Of a stretch of 20,328 nucleotides of DNA, positions 1,357 to 20,035 are shown piece after piece. Positions within the stretch are counted from its first letter, which is position 1. Each line of letters begins with the position of its first letter. Source of the DNA: a virus; the IMG/VR virus record IMGVR_UViG_3300042923_000831, positions 1-20,328 of that record; one strand, 5' to 3'. The notes under the pieces were generated by a model. That model saw only the letters and a program-made list of their open reading frames with translations. It made no database searches and was not told where the DNA came from. The translations under genes were made by a program, and so were the position numbers.

Positions 1357-1992
1357 TTAGATGAGTGAGCCCCACCCGGTGAGGGATGGGGCCGTCTGGT
1401 TGCGGTCAAGCCAGCGTTTGAGTTTGGGAAGGTTCTGGTCTGGCCCGAAGACAAGGTAGGTGCCGTCTACGGAATCGCATCCGATAGCCGCGGCGTACCT
1501 GAGTCGGCGTTCGGAGTTGACCCGGCCCATGTGTACCCACTTGCCGCGGGCTTTCGCTTCCCGGGTGAGTTGTGCGGCGTGGGGTCCGAGTTTCCATTCG
1601 GTGGTGCCGCCCAGGAAGAGTGCGTCGAACTCGTCCCACGGGACACCGACCGTTTCGGCGCCGTCTTGCGCGACGAACGCTGCCGGGTATCCGAGCTCAC
1701 GGATCTTCGGGAGCCATGGGGTTGAGCGTTCGAGGGTTCCTGCGGCGTCAGCGACAACATCAGGGGCGGTCGCGAACAGGCATCTCGAGCGTTGCTCCGG
1801 GGTGAAACTGTCCAACCATGCGAGCCATGCGTCTTCGCCGGGGAACCCTTTGCCGAAGCATCCGTTGTCGGCACACCATGCGGCACCCTCGGGGATCGCG
1901 TTGCCCTGCATGGGCGTGTTGATCATCCCGAGGGTGCCGGAGGTCATTGCGTCACGAATAGGTCCCGTGGACGGGTTTCCGAAGTACAGCAC
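1357..1992 (-). CDS. DpdA/TGT-like deazaguanine transglycosylase (DNA modification)
   Basis: The 211-aa protein matches the tRNA-guanine transglycosylase fold at its signature points. ADNGCFGKG at 41-49 aligns with TGT TDSGGFQ, making D42 the general-base equivalent. LGGTTEWKLG at 127-136 aligns with the GG..GE substrate loop. GCDSVDGT at 171-178 aligns with the G.D.FD nucleophile motif (D173). TGTs swap guanine for a 7-deazaguanine base; phage DpdA members do so in DNA, giving resistance to restriction. At about 210 aa it is much shorter than a tRNA TGT and lacks the usual C-terminal CxCxxC zinc site, as do short phage DpdA-type proteins. The start is GTG at 1992; the gene overlaps the transporter gene by 41 nt. 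No preQ0 synthesis genes (FolE, QueD/E/C) are seen, so precursor would be imported. The family call is confident, the product inferred. Confidence 0.8.
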   Translation of the reverse strand: MLYFGNPSTGPIRDAMTSGTLGMINTPMQGNAIPEGAAWCADNGCFGKGFPGEDAWLAWLDSFTPEQRSRCLFATAPDVVADAAGTLERSTPWLPKIRELGYPAAFVAQDGAETVGVPWDEFDALFLGGTTEWKLGPHAAQLTREAKARGKWVHMGRVNSERRLRYAAAIGCDSVDGTYLVFGPDQNLPKLKRWLDRNQTAPSLTGWGSLI

Positions 1993-2518
1993 GGGACACC
2001 ACCCATCCGATGAGAATGAACGCGAGCATCGCCCACGCCTTGCCTACGAGTTGCCCGGGGAGGGCGGGGATGATTGCGGCGGGACCGAACGCGATCCCGA
2101 GGAACAGGACCGTGTCAACCACCGCACCAACGACGGTGGATGCTGCAACCGCGATGGCCCACTTGCGGTCACCGAACCTGGCCCGCTTGCGGATGGGCGT
2201 GTACACGCCGTAGTCCGCGAGCTCGGACACGAGGAACGCGATCACCGATGCGAGGGCGATGAATGGTGCGGACATTGCGAAGGACAGGGCTGCACCTGCG
2301 AGGATCGCTGCGATGACCACCCACTTGCCGAGGGTGTCTTGGATGCCGTCTCTGAGTGCGAGGGTTGCGCCGGCCACGTAGGTGCCTGCGGTGGCGGTGA
2401 GTCCGAACCCAACGGGGACGAACCCGTAGTGGGTGGTGAGGACGTTCGCGAGTACGACCGTGGAGATGAAAACGGCCACCAGAATCCATCCGGTGACCTT
2501 CTTGCTTGTGGTGTTCAT
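1952..2518 (-). CDS. VUT/YhhQ-family queuosine-precursor transporter
   Basis: This 188-aa integral membrane protein has about six hydrophobic segments and features typical of the VUT/YhhQ family: an early VVLANVLT segment, LRDGIQDTLGKW after the second or third helix, a loop near SELADYGVYTPIRKR and VDTVLFLGIAFG near the C-terminus. YhhQ proteins import the 7-deazaguanine precursors preQ0/preQ1 across the inner membrane. The ATG at 2518 directly abuts the previous stop and has AAAGG upstream. The 41-nt overlap with the DpdA-like gene argues that transporter and transglycosylase work together, the phage taking precursor from outside or boosting host uptake. The family is confident; the substrate is inferred from family and neighbour. 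Confidence 0.85.
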   Translation of the reverse strand: MNTTSKKVTGWILVAVFISTVVLANVLTTHYGFVPVGFGLTATAGTYVAGATLALRDGIQDTLGKWVVIAAILAGAALSFAMSAPFIALASVIAFLVSELADYGVYTPIRKRARFGDRKWAIAVAASTVVGAVVDTVLFLGIAFGPAAIIPALPGQLVGKAWAMLAFILIGWVVSRAVLRKPVHGTYS

Positions 2519-3279: not shown

Positions 3280-3608
3280 CGGGTTCCTGCTTCCTCAAAC
3301 TCAGACACAAACACCACACCCTCCACAGGAACGAAACAAAACCCCGCACGCCCCGTCGACAACTGCCACTCCGCGTCCGGGTGAACACACTCCCCCGTCA
3401 CAGGGTGACGGTCAGCCGGATCAAACACCGCCCTGGCCCTCGCAGCATGCACAGCGCACACGAACATGCCCGACCCGCCCGGACGATCAAACAGGTGATG
3501 CTCCACCGCCGGTGCGTAACACTCGGTTACAGCCCATGAGGTGATGAACCCGCAATGCCCCCGAGATGTGGTCGGGAGAATGGGACCGATCGTCCCCTTA
3601 CGCCTCAT
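3276..3608 (-). CDS. Hypothetical Cys/His-containing protein (110 aa)
   Basis: The ATG at 3608 overlaps the methyltransferase stop as ATGA, which fixes the start against the longer frame. It carries several Cys/His residues (HCGF, TECY, VEHHLFD, FVCAVHAARA, GECVHPD, GFCFVP) spaced as in a small treble-clef or zinc fold, with HP..EW and VFVSEFEE beta-like segments at the end. The function is not recognised. Tight overlap on both sides shows it belongs to the early operon. Confidence 0.7.
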   Translation of the reverse strand: MRRKGTIGPILPTTSRGHCGFITSWAVTECYAPAVEHHLFDRPGGSGMFVCAVHAARARAVFDPADRHPVTGECVHPDAEWQLSTGRAGFCFVPVEGVVFVSEFEEAGTR

Positions 3609-4762
3609 GCGTGTACTCCTAGCAAGGTCAGGGCCAGCGCGGCCTGTTGCGGTACGACGCCGTTGCCGAGCGCCTTCAACTGCTGGGCTCGCGTCAAACC
3701 AACGTTCGTGACGTGGCCTTCGGGGAGGCCCATCATCCATTCCACGAATCGAGGAGAGAGTCGGTGCTTCCCACCTCGTCCGTCAGGAGAGGTGGGGGCA
3801 GGGGCCAGCCGTCCGAGCTGGTGTTCCCATCGCTCGATTGCCGGGGCGTACTCTCGCCAATCAGTTGAGCCGCGATCGTCAAGGGCATCCCCATGCCGTT
3901 GCCGTTCTGTGCCGTCATCTTCACTCGCGATCGGCGGGCCAACCATGACTCGGTCGGTTCCCCGTCGTTCGGATTTGACGCGGCTGGCGTCGGCAGTAGA
4001 TGGATGGCCGTCCTCAAGTCCAGCCCGCCCGTACCGTGCACTCCTGGGCCGTTCTTGTCGGTCGTCCTCGGGGTTGGTAGCAGGTGACCGGTCAATGCGA
4101 GCATCTGCCCGGTCAGCCGCAGAGTCTGACCCCGCTCGCGCGCCGTGTCCGGGTGCAACGGACCCCCGCCATCCTCCGCCGCCATCGGGGTACGCAACAA
4201 CGAAGACCCGGAACCGTCCGTGAGGCGCCCCGGCATCGGCAGCTCGGACACCAACCCATCTGCCCACATACCCGAGGCGGGCAAGGTCGAGGAGTACACG
4301 TCCAAGTGCTCGAACGTTGGGAGCATGTCCCCCTCGGTAATCGGGGTCAGCACATCGCGGGCAAGGTCCAATCTCGCTATCGGCTTCGCATTCGGCGCAT
4401 CCACTCAGAAGTCCTCTCACGTTCTCAATCACGACCAGCCGCGGGCGGAGCGTGGCAATCGCCTTGACCGCGTCCCCCCAGAGCCCTGAGCGGGTACCTG
4501 GCCGCATCCCCGAGCGGCGCCCGATAAGCGACAAGTCCTGACAGGGGAAACCCAGCGTCAGGACATCAACGGCTGGCATTGACAGCCAGTCCACCTTTGT
4601 GACGTCGCCGTAGTTGGGTACGTCGGGCCAGTGGCGGGCGAAGATTCGTGATGGTGCTTCGTCGAACTCGACGTGCCACGCCACCTCACCCCCAAGGACT
4701 GACATGACGCCCATGTCGAGTCCGCCGTAGCCGGAGAACAGCGAACCAATCTTCAGCTTCAC
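3605..4762 (-). CDS. C5-cytosine-specific DNA methyltransferase
   Basis: This 385-aa protein has the ordered motifs of the DNMT family: motif I SLFSGYGGLDMG (7-18, SAM binding), motif IV GFPCQDLS (71-78) with catalytic Cys74, motif VI ENV (113-115), GRFRVFVVA as motif VIII, and the C-terminal motif X GNGVVPQQ. A CxxC..CxxC insertion (about residues 122-140) may bind zinc. The variable region between motifs VIII and IX, rich in Arg/Asp, should be the target recognition domain. It transfers methyl to cytosine C5 in phage DNA. The GTG start at 4762 overlaps the previous stop as GTGA. No partner endonuclease lies alongside, so it is likely an orphan methylase for anti-restriction or regulation. 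Confidence 0.93.
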   Translation of the reverse strand: MKLKIGSLFSGYGGLDMGVMSVLGGEVAWHVEFDEAPSRIFARHWPDVPNYGDVTKVDWLSMPAVDVLTLGFPCQDLSLIGRRSGMRPGTRSGLWGDAVKAIATLRPRLVVIENVRGLLSGCAECEADSEIGPCPRCADPDYRGGHAPNVRALGRVLLDLARLGYVGRWVGVRAADAGAPHGRFRVFVVAYPDGGGGWRGSVAPGHGARAGSDSAADRADARIDRSPATNPEDDRQERPRSARYGRAGLEDGHPSTADASRVKSERRGTDRVMVGPPIASEDDGTERQRHGDALDDRGSTDWREYAPAIERWEHQLGRLAPAPTSPDGRGGKHRLSPRFVEWMMGLPEGHVTNVGLTRAQQLKALGNGVVPQQAALALTLLGVHA

Positions 4763-5010
4763 TCTTGCCCCAAGTGCTCGCGACAGTCCGCACATCGACG
4801 TCTAACGCCGTGTTGCTCCCATGACTCGTGCGCGCAGGCCACCGCGAGGAGCTCGTGTTCGGCGATCAGGTCGCGGAGGGCCTGGCGGATTTTTCGCAGG
4901 TCTTCCGTAGCAAGATGTGCCTGGTACGTCGGGCCGGGGTTTTGATCCAGGCCCGCACGCATCAATGGTTCCGTCGCCAGTGCGGCGCGGGCGTCTTCGA
5001 GCGCACTCAT
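4759..5010 (-). CDS. Hypothetical helical protein with C-terminal Cys motif (83 aa)
   Basis: The ATG at 5010 has AAGGAG 7 nt upstream and overlaps the previous stop as ATGA. Residues 1-55 are helical (DLRKIRQALRDLIAEHELLA) and the C-terminus has CAHESWEQHG followed by CADCREH, a likely C/H metal knuckle. The function is not recognised. Confidence 0.75.
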   Translation of the reverse strand: MSALEDARAALATEPLMRAGLDQNPGPTYQAHLATEDLRKIRQALRDLIAEHELLAVACAHESWEQHGVRRRCADCREHLGQE

Positions 5011-16096: not shown

Positions 16097-16311
16097 TGAG
16101 CGAGCGCCGGGAGATCAACGACCTCATCGATGAGTACGCGGTGACCACGATGATGAGCCGATCCGAGCTGACCGCCGTGGCTCGTGAGTACCCCGACGAG
16201 GACATGGTGCGGTTCATGTTCGAAGCGAAGGCCAACAACCCGTGGGTCTCGTGGCTTTGGCTTGCTTACGTGTACAGGGAAGCCCCCACGCTGACCCTCA
16301 ACGAGTCCTAA
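16096..16311 (+). CDS. Hypothetical protein (71 aa)
   Basis: ATG 16096 overlaps the previous stop (TGATG). Acidic and helical (INDLIDEYAVTTMMSRSELT, VAREYPDEDMVRFMFEAKA), then a Trp-rich segment (NNPWVSWLWLAYVY). It ends 11 nt before the integrase start. Not recognised. Confidence 0.75.
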   Translation: MSERREINDLIDEYAVTTMMSRSELTAVAREYPDEDMVRFMFEAKANNPWVSWLWLAYVYREAPTLTLNES

Positions 16312-16322
16312 GATGCGTCCCC

Positions 16323-17489
16323 ATGGCTAGGCCACCGCTGCCCCTGGAGACTTACGGCACGATCCGTAAGTTCACTCACAACGGGAAGCCGGCAGCCAGC
16401 GCGCACTACCGCGACAGTGACGGTGAGACGCGGCGGATGATGCGGACGGGGCGGACCTCAGCTCTAGCCGTCAACGCGCTCAAGGAAGCTCTGCGCGATC
16501 GTCTGGCGCCGGCCGGTGACGCGATCACGCGGGAATCGACGCTCGAGGAACTTGCGGCGGCGTGGAAAGTGGAGATGCTGGCCGACAACAACCTGGCGGA
16601 CGGGACGAAACTCACCTATCAGGAGGCGTTGAAGGCGGTTCTGCGGGGTTTGTCTGGTGTCCGGGTTGGGGAGGCTACCCCCGCGAAACTGAACCGTTAC
16701 ATCCAGGCGGTGGCGGCGAAGACTCCGGGGCAGGCACGGACGGTTCGGATCGTGTTGAAGCACATGATGTCGTATGCGGTGTATGCGGGTGCGGTCGACT
16801 CGAACCCGGTGCCGGAGACGAAGGCCGTGACGCGGACGAAACCGAAGGTGAAGGCGTTGCGCGCGGCCGACATCGCTGCGATTCGTGGGCTGTTGGAGGT
16901 GTGGGATGCCGGGTTCGACCGGTATCAGCGTCCACGGAACGGGAGCCTGCGGGACACGATGGACATGTATGCGGCGACCGGTGCCCGCACGTCGGAGGTT
17001 CTGGCGTTGCGGTGGTCTGACTTCAACTTCGACTCGCTGCCACCCACGGTCACCATCAACGGGACCGTCTCTCGGAGTATCGACGGGAAGCTGGTTGTGA
17101 AGGACACGTTGAAGACGGACAAGTCGCGGCGCGAGCTCGAACTGCCGGTGTTCGTTGTGCCGATGCTCGAGGCGCGTGCAGCCGGTGCGTACTCGGATCT
17201 GGTGTTCCCCTCTGCGGCGGGGACGCCGAGGTGGCCTGACAACCTTCGCAGGGATTGGCGGGCCGCGCTCGAGGGCAGCGACTACGCGTCGGTGACTCCT
17301 GGGGCGTTCCGTAAGGCTGTGGCGACGTTGCTTGCGGAGGATCTGGGTGTTGAGGCTGCGCGTGACCAGCTCGGGCATACGGGGTTCGGGAATCTGCGGC
17401 ATTACGTGGAGCAGGCTTCGCGCGGGCCGGCGTCGGCGGCGACGGTGCAGAAGCTTCTGTCGGCAAAACCGCCACTAAATAGCCACTAA
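16323..17489 (+). CDS. int: Tyrosine-family integrase
   Basis: 388 aa. N-terminal arm-binding region (about 1-70), core-binding SAM-like domain (about 72-160), catalytic domain (about 178-388). Catalytic set: R222 in ATGARTSEVLALRW, a lysine around 264-267 in LKTDKSRRELELP, R330 in TPGAFRK, H352 in DQLGHTG and nucleophile Y361 in LRHYVE. The first position of the usual HxxR box is Gly327 here. It integrates phage DNA at attP by strand exchange. The last codons contain two direct repeats (GCCACTAA) that look like arm-type sites. No strong ribosome site; likely coupled or leaderless. A strong terminator follows. Confidence 0.95.
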   Translation: MARPPLPLETYGTIRKFTHNGKPAASAHYRDSDGETRRMMRTGRTSALAVNALKEALRDRLAPAGDAITRESTLEELAAAWKVEMLADNNLADGTKLTYQEALKAVLRGLSGVRVGEATPAKLNRYIQAVAAKTPGQARTVRIVLKHMMSYAVYAGAVDSNPVPETKAVTRTKPKVKALRAADIAAIRGLLEVWDAGFDRYQRPRNGSLRDTMDMYAATGARTSEVLALRWSDFNFDSLPPTVTINGTVSRSIDGKLVVKDTLKTDKSRRELELPVFVVPMLEARAAGAYSDLVFPSAAGTPRWPDNLRRDWRAALEGSDYASVTPGAFRKAVATLLAEDLGVEAARDQLGHTGFGNLRHYVEQASRGPASAATVQKLLSAKPPLNSH

Positions 17490-19562: not shown

Positions 19563-19598
19563 GGCCCCGGAGAGTGCGTCAACACTCAATCCGGAGCC
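19563..19598 (+). other. Leader hairpin before the HNH gene
   Basis: Nested arms: GGC/GCC, CCGG/CCGG and GAGTG/CACTC with a 6-nt loop. It would fold in the HNH leader about 40 nt before its ribosome site. No T-run; a regulatory or stabilising leader is likely. Confidence 0.5.
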
Positions 19599-19636
19599 TC
19601 ACCCAAGCAATCGACCTAACCGATTGGAGGGCTGCT

Positions 19637-20035
19637 ATGCAGTCTACAGAACAGTGGAAGCCCGTCGTTGGATACGAGGGCGTTTACGAGGTCTCAGATC
19701 ACGGACGGGTACGTGGGGTGGATCGGGTTATCCAAGACAGCGTCCGCGGTAACCTCCGCCGATTGAAGGCGCGTCTCCTGAAGGTCTCGCCACTGCCGAC
19801 TGGACATCTATACGTCAACCTCTGCCGCAACGGCAAAGCCACGTCGACGTACGTTCACCGGATGGTGTTGGAGGCGTTCGTTGGCCCTTCCCCGTCTGAC
19901 CATGAAGGATGCCATTGGGACGGCGATCCTTCTAACAACCATCTGGACAACCTCCGCTGGGGCACCCGATCAGACAACGTGCAAGACGCTATTCGCCACG
20001 GAACGTATCTTGGCGCACGGCGGCGACGCGTCTAG
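19637..20035 (+). CDS. NUMOD4-HNH homing-type endonuclease
   Basis: 132 aa. The N-terminus has the NUMOD4 signature WKPVVGYEGVYEVSDHGRVRG (7-27), then a linker, a strand pair HLYVNLCRNGKATSTYVHRMVLEAF with catalytic His, HEGCHWDGDPSNNHLDNLRWGTRSDN as the HNH core (CHWDGD, NNHLDNLRW) and a basic tail. Free-standing homing endonucleases cut intron-less or endonuclease-less relatives and spread by repair. ATG 19637 has GGAGGG. It is the only plus-strand gene among the minus-strand late genes, a sign of insertion. Confidence 0.92.
   Translation: MQSTEQWKPVVGYEGVYEVSDHGRVRGVDRVIQDSVRGNLRRLKARLLKVSPLPTGHLYVNLCRNGKATSTYVHRMVLEAFVGPSPSDHEGCHWDGDPSNNHLDNLRWGTRSDNVQDAIRHGTYLGARRRRV

Follow-up and report, generated by a model that had tools for sequence, protein, structure and literature searches.

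We report that two overlapping genes in a phage genome fragment of 20,328 nucleotides (nt) (IMG/VR record IMGVR_UViG_3300042923_000831, positions 1 to 20,328; this whole stretch is the window below) probably constitute a salvage-type module for 7-deazaguanine modification of DNA. The upstream gene of the pair (positions 1952..2518, minus strand, ATG start) encodes a VUT/YhhQ-type (COG1738) queuosine-precursor transporter of 188 amino acids (aa), and the downstream gene (1357..1992, minus strand, GTG start) encodes a putative 211-aa DNA-guanine transglycosylase, a small DpdA-like protein recognized by its phrog_15826 match, its TIM-barrel model, its hhalign alignment to DpdA, and its invariant residues. 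This analysis directly establishes the identity and overlap of the genes, the predicted fold, the conserved residues, the remote homology, and a linkage to 7-deazaguanine genes in phages and plasmids; from these results we infer that preQ0 or preQ1 is imported, that it is exchanged for guanine in DNA, and that the modification is protective. The strongest evidence for salvage comes from gene context, namely, the linkage to the transporter, the linkage to a QueF-like gene, and the replacement of the transporter by queC, queE, and queD in some relatives.

In the mechanism that we propose, the transporter would take up an extracellular 7-deazaguanine base, either preQ0 or preQ1, in hosts that may often be unable to make it, and the coupled small DpdA would swap guanine in DNA for the imported base. 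If the small DpdA works as tRNA-guanine transglycosylase (TGT) does, D176 would attack the deoxyribose as nucleophile and D42 would serve as acid/base, with D78 and the GG loop holding the base. The expected product is phage DNA that resists host restriction enzymes.

Conserved pairing of a transporter and a small DpdA-like gene

The 188-aa protein matched Vut_1 (PF02592) with 51.2 bits against a cutoff of 27.2 (E = 2.4e-13) and scored 50.3 bits against the queuosine precursor transporter model TIGR00697, the cutoff of which is 50.95. YhhQ, the Escherichia coli member, is required for preQ0/preQ1 salvage (PMC5372724). Relatives of the small DpdA were drawn from actinophages (many of them already annotated "DpdA-like"), 36 viral contigs, 7 bacterial genomes, and 172 plasmid records. 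The transporter lies directly upstream of small dpdA on the same strand, usually overlapping it, in 26 loci (25 nonredundant), including two Streptomyces plasmids. The 41-nt overlap in the window (1952..1992, minus strand) recurs identically in nine other nonredundant loci, and overlaps of 4 to 44 nt occur in seven more; the 41-nt overlap suggests translational coupling of the two genes. Since relatives begin at the same place (MLYxANP) and the identical overlap is found in those nine loci, the GTG start of the 211-aa gene is supported. Both genes are under purifying selection relative to close relatives, with a ratio of nonsynonymous to synonymous substitution rates (dN/dS) of 0.03 to 0.04 for small dpdA and, for the transporter, a dN much lower than dS. 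The two open reading frames (ORFs) and their overlap had been called in the same places by a first-pass annotation of the window, made from the sequence.

Alternation with synthesis genes and a QueF-like partner

Across 38 records, Vut_1 was present in 22 and queC in 5, and no record had both; under independence, this lack of co-occurrence has a chance of ~0.009, a value uncorrected for kinship. Of the queC records, the four searched for queD all carry it, and it is found in none of the others. The synthesis genes are closely arranged with the small enzyme: one record (L026) has a compact, largely overlapping array of dpdA, queC, queE, and queD, another (L017) has the order queC, queE, queD, dpdA, and in a third (L037) small dpdA adjoins queC. 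No canonical dpdA was found in the L017 and L026 records, and phage Sonali (L038) carries a complete preQ0 pathway together with both canonical and small DpdA. The synthesis state appears at five separate places on a 45-member tree of the enzyme. Because the tree needs five changes, at least two of which are forced by well-supported branches, the swap between transporter and synthesis genes probably occurred more than once.

Searches of the window recovered none of queC, queD, queE, folE, queF, and canonical dpdA. The window and many of the relatives' contigs are fragments, so such absences are weak evidence. queC, queD, and canonical dpdA are also missing from the nearest relatives (contigs of 25 to 41 kb) and from the complete relatives Aoka, GreaseLightnin, and ReqiPine5. 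The earlier statement that no precursor synthesis genes are visible holds for the window and, with respect to queC and queD, for complete relatives, the 20-kb fragment being indecisive by itself.

An unannotated gene for a protein like QueF, an enzyme of preQ0 chemistry, fills a gap of 300 to 410 nt between the transporter and small dpdA in seven loci, and in an eighth it overlaps small dpdA in a record with no transporter. Four of the seven intergenic proteins score above the Pfam cutoff and three are weaker; all are mutually related. These QueF-like proteins of ~110 aa are encoded beside small dpdA in L008 (8163-8498), L009, L012, L014, L015, L028, L040 (7667-7996), and L010 (9374-9901); none was found in the window.

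Predicted fold and remote homology of the small enzyme

The 211-aa protein matches phrog_15826 (function unknown; E = 1.9e-92) and no other PHROG, including the canonical DpdA profile phrog_887, with which distant family members L033 and L035 reach 0.04 to 0.07. No Pfam or NCBIfam model, the TGT family PF01702 included, matched it at E ≤ 1, and searches of solved structures by sequence alone, whether with single proteins or with profiles, gave nothing meaningful for the enzyme. An AlphaFold2 model computed from 30 sequences is a confident TIM barrel with a TGT-type fold (pLDDT, 93.5; pTM, 0.89). Foldseek searches of the PDB with this model gave 26 matches at E ≤ 0.001, among them DpdA (7ui4, a DNA preQ0 insertase; 5.5e-4) and TGT (3s1g; 4.5e-4), and several phage queuine transglycosylases are among the viral matches in BFVD.

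With hhalign, the small-enzyme profile aligned with that of nine canonical phage DpdA proteins at a probability of 94.6 (E = 6.6e-8), with a score of 59.4, whereas 60 column shuffles reached at most 22.4 and reversal gave 12.7. This alignment pairs D42 with D37, D78 with D73, the GG loops with each other, and H154 with H155 (small enzyme and canonical DpdA, respectively), D37 and D73 being invariant in canonical DpdA. The invariant positions of a 30-member alignment include D42-N43-G44, G128-G129...K134, and D176-G177, as well as P77-D78, H154, and G156-R-V-N159. D42, D78, H154, and D176, putative active-site residues with codons at 1867-1869, 1759-1761, 1531-1533, and 1465-1467 (minus strand), are kept in every aligned phage and plasmid member. 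The three TGT signature points named in the first-pass annotation (D42, the GG loop, and GCDSVDG) are real, and the structural comparison with DpdA/TGT that it proposed gave a TIM barrel that matches 7ui4 and 3s1g amid other barrels, with the aspartates kept. Judged by its model, its profile homology, and its conserved aspartates and histidine, the 211-aa protein is a small relative of phage DpdA.

Two further features of the family were observed. Four members (L020, L021, L028, and L031) have a zinc-ribbon-like CxxC...CxxC insert of ~30 aa whose position is precisely that of the GG loop, with GG on one side and TEWK on the other. The best BFVD match to the model is a 499-aa uncultured marine virus protein (A0A0F7L9Z1; E = 2.3e-12; 27% identity), which indicates that the small enzyme may occur fused to another domain.

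Evaluation of the salvage proposal and its alternatives

The first-pass annotation had read the pair as a TGT/DpdA-type enzyme with an importer, serving salvage rather than synthesis. Remote homology, the linkage to the transporter and the QueF-like gene, and the replacement by queC/queE/queD strengthen that part, whereas its claims that the DNA is actually modified and that DNA rather than tRNA is the target reach beyond the evidence. Phage CAjan needs DpdA for the modification of its DNA (PMC6884629). Several observations weigh against the salvage module. Ribulose-phosphate epimerases lead the PDB Foldseek list, several unrelated TIM barrels outrank TGT and DpdA, and the TM-scores are modest; Foldseek by itself leaves the enzyme family of the model unsettled. 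The hhalign block ends before D176, the correspondence of which to D174 was drawn by eye. About one-third of the family members have neither transporter nor queC nearby, some of these being contig fragments, and the Cellulomonas host of a transporter-type prophage is an exception in carrying its own queC. Mycobacterium phage Orion, with DpdA and no pathway genes, was unmodified when tested (PMC6884629), and we found no biochemical or mass-spectrometric evidence for the small-DpdA family.

The alternative that survives best, although we consider it improbable, places the small enzyme in such a module with a role other than bulk insertion: it would have a second sequence specificity or make another 7-deazaguanine product, the main insertion being done elsewhere. 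The presence of both canonical and small DpdA in Sonali and in Vibrio phage R29Z (L086) would fit this, but by these profiles the small enzyme is the sole DpdA-like gene in 36 of the 38 records, including two with a preQ0 operon. We rejected a simpler version, in which it is merely an additional copy accompanying canonical DpdA, since phrog_887 was found in just 2 of the 38 records.

We regard as about equally improbable a transglycosylase acting on tRNA, whereby an imported queuosine precursor would restore modified tRNA and tune translation. The Foldseek matches place the enzyme in the same superfamily as tRNA TGT, and bacterial transporters of this family function in tRNA queuosine formation (PMC5372724). 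However, the profile similarity is to phage DpdA, there is no Pfam TGT match, and QueA, QueG, and QueH were not seen in the annotated relatives, where no systematic search for them was made; furthermore, a convincing QueC and a TGT are both missing from four of the seven host genomes. Least probable, and in our view very unlikely, is that a TIM-barrel enzyme of unrelated type, a hydrolase or lyase, is paired with a transporter for another vitamin or purine in some other pathway, a reading favored by the generic barrels heading the Foldseek list and by the functional inhomogeneity of COG1738 (PMC5372724) but one that leaves the QueF-like and queC/queE/queD neighbors and the conserved DpdA-type residues unexplained.

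Distribution across hosts and plasmids and neighboring genes

Among the seven bacterial genomes examined, two from Micromonospora have the transporter beside dpdA with no full-length queC match and no TGT, and one from Actinomadura has queC and no transporter. In L064 (5061-6322), from Micromonospora andamanensis, each gene of the pair, small dpdA as well as the transporter, seems to be split over two reading frames, and this locus is possibly a decayed prophage.

The family is also present, unannotated, on plasmids of Streptomyces, Nocardia, Deinococcus, Burkholderia, and Pseudomonas. Pseudomonas accounts for 131 of the 172 plasmid records with relatives (PLSDB examples, NZ_MN208061, 382075-382938, and NC_005244, 30474-31364); these ~130 proteins (280 to 300 aa in those read) are labeled only as hypothetical proteins. 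Those relatives on Pseudomonas, Deinococcus, and Nocardia plasmids that were examined lack a transporter in their vicinity. We tentatively entertain the wider possibility that these proteins form a distinct compact DpdA subfamily spread across actinobacterial phages and plasmids and that many mobile elements modify their DNA with a scavenged base, which in some cases a hitherto undescribed QueF-like enzyme would convert.

The window also encodes a tyrosine integrase and a NUMOD4-HNH homing-type endonuclease (16242-17489 and 19574-20035), which mark it as a fragment of a temperate phage. A C5-cytosine DNA methyltransferase gene (3605-4795) lies within ~6 kb of small dpdA, and DNA methyltransferase genes occur within the same distance in an Actinacidiphila plasmid (L093), a Nocardia plasmid (L088), and GreaseLightnin (L041); their proximity in several elements suggests layered DNA modification. 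Two different elements, ReqiPine5 (L039, 8709-9626) and L063 (10507-11631), have a PAPS-reductase-like gene directly downstream of small dpdA. Small neighboring genes of 72 and 48 aa had been suggested to tailor specificity, an idea that goes beyond the evidence, nothing having been found in its favor; the adjacent small ORFs of 82 aa (1127-1375) and 71 aa (2519-2734) were scanned, gave no match, and were dropped as candidate specificity factors.

If the salvage proposal is correct, the restriction protection of mobile elements would depend on the chemistry of their neighborhood, that is, on a base supplied by the environment or the host, and importing this base instead of making it would be a cheap means of hiding DNA from bacterial defenses. 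Because transporter and enzyme are tightly paired and the pair alternates with synthesis, feeding preQ0 or preQ1 offers a direct test of the hypothesis. The pairing may also explain why a dpdA-only actinophage could seem unmodified after growth in laboratory media lacking the precursor. It offers a likely function for proteins annotated as hypothetical on many plasmids, Pseudomonas megaplasmids among them, and raises the possibility of the same DNA camouflage in plasmids.

Comparison with known systems

The small enzyme shares with the DpdA proteins of phages 9g, CAjan, and Rosebush (PMC6884629) the TIM barrel, the aspartates D42 (D37 in canonical DpdA) and D78 (D73), the GG loop, the histidine H154 (H155) and, by eye, D176 (D174), and some members share the linkage to preQ0 genes. 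It differs in its size of ~200 aa versus ~300 aa, in having GRVN after the histidine where canonical DpdA has HGxG(I/V)T, and in having Q109 at the position of canonical H103. PHROGs does not join the two, and the small enzyme lacks a matching Pfam or NCBIfam model.

The DpdA-only phages Salmonella 7-11 and Orion (PMC6884629) and Pantoea MED16 (PMC8306585) likewise have dpdA without precursor synthesis, and the DNA of 7-11 and MED16 carries dADG (PMC6884629; PMC8306585). In 2019, uptake or host supply was proposed for such phages, with their modification status termed "difficult to predict," and phage YhhQ homologs were reported to be uncorrelated with any group (PMC6884629). In contrast to that survey, here the transporter is tightly linked to small dpdA and alternates with synthesis genes. 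With YhhQ/QPTR (COG1738, PF02592), the E. coli member of which imports preQ0/preQ1 (PMC5372724), the window transporter shares the Vut_1 match; unlike them, the phage and plasmid transporters are short and coupled to a DpdA-like gene instead of tRNA queuosine genes. The QueF-like proteins keep the Cys-Pro, the Asp at +7, and the His-Glu of QueF and QueF-like enzymes (PF14489, TIGR03139), but they fall below the TIGR03139 cutoff and carry ELHSL instead of the customary helix motif, and they may be reductases or amidinotransferases.

The proteins named "DpdA-like tRNA-guanine transglycosylase" by SEA-PHAGES in Sonali (gene 81), Aoka (gene 40), and GreaseLightnin (gene 55) belong to the same family and are 56 to 64% identical to the window protein. 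Those entries give the name only, with the adjacent transporter and QueF-like genes left as "hypothetical" or "membrane protein." We do not claim the family itself as undescribed; the additions made here are its linkage to the transporter, the way in which the transporter alternates with synthesis genes, the QueF-like partner, and the spread to plasmids.
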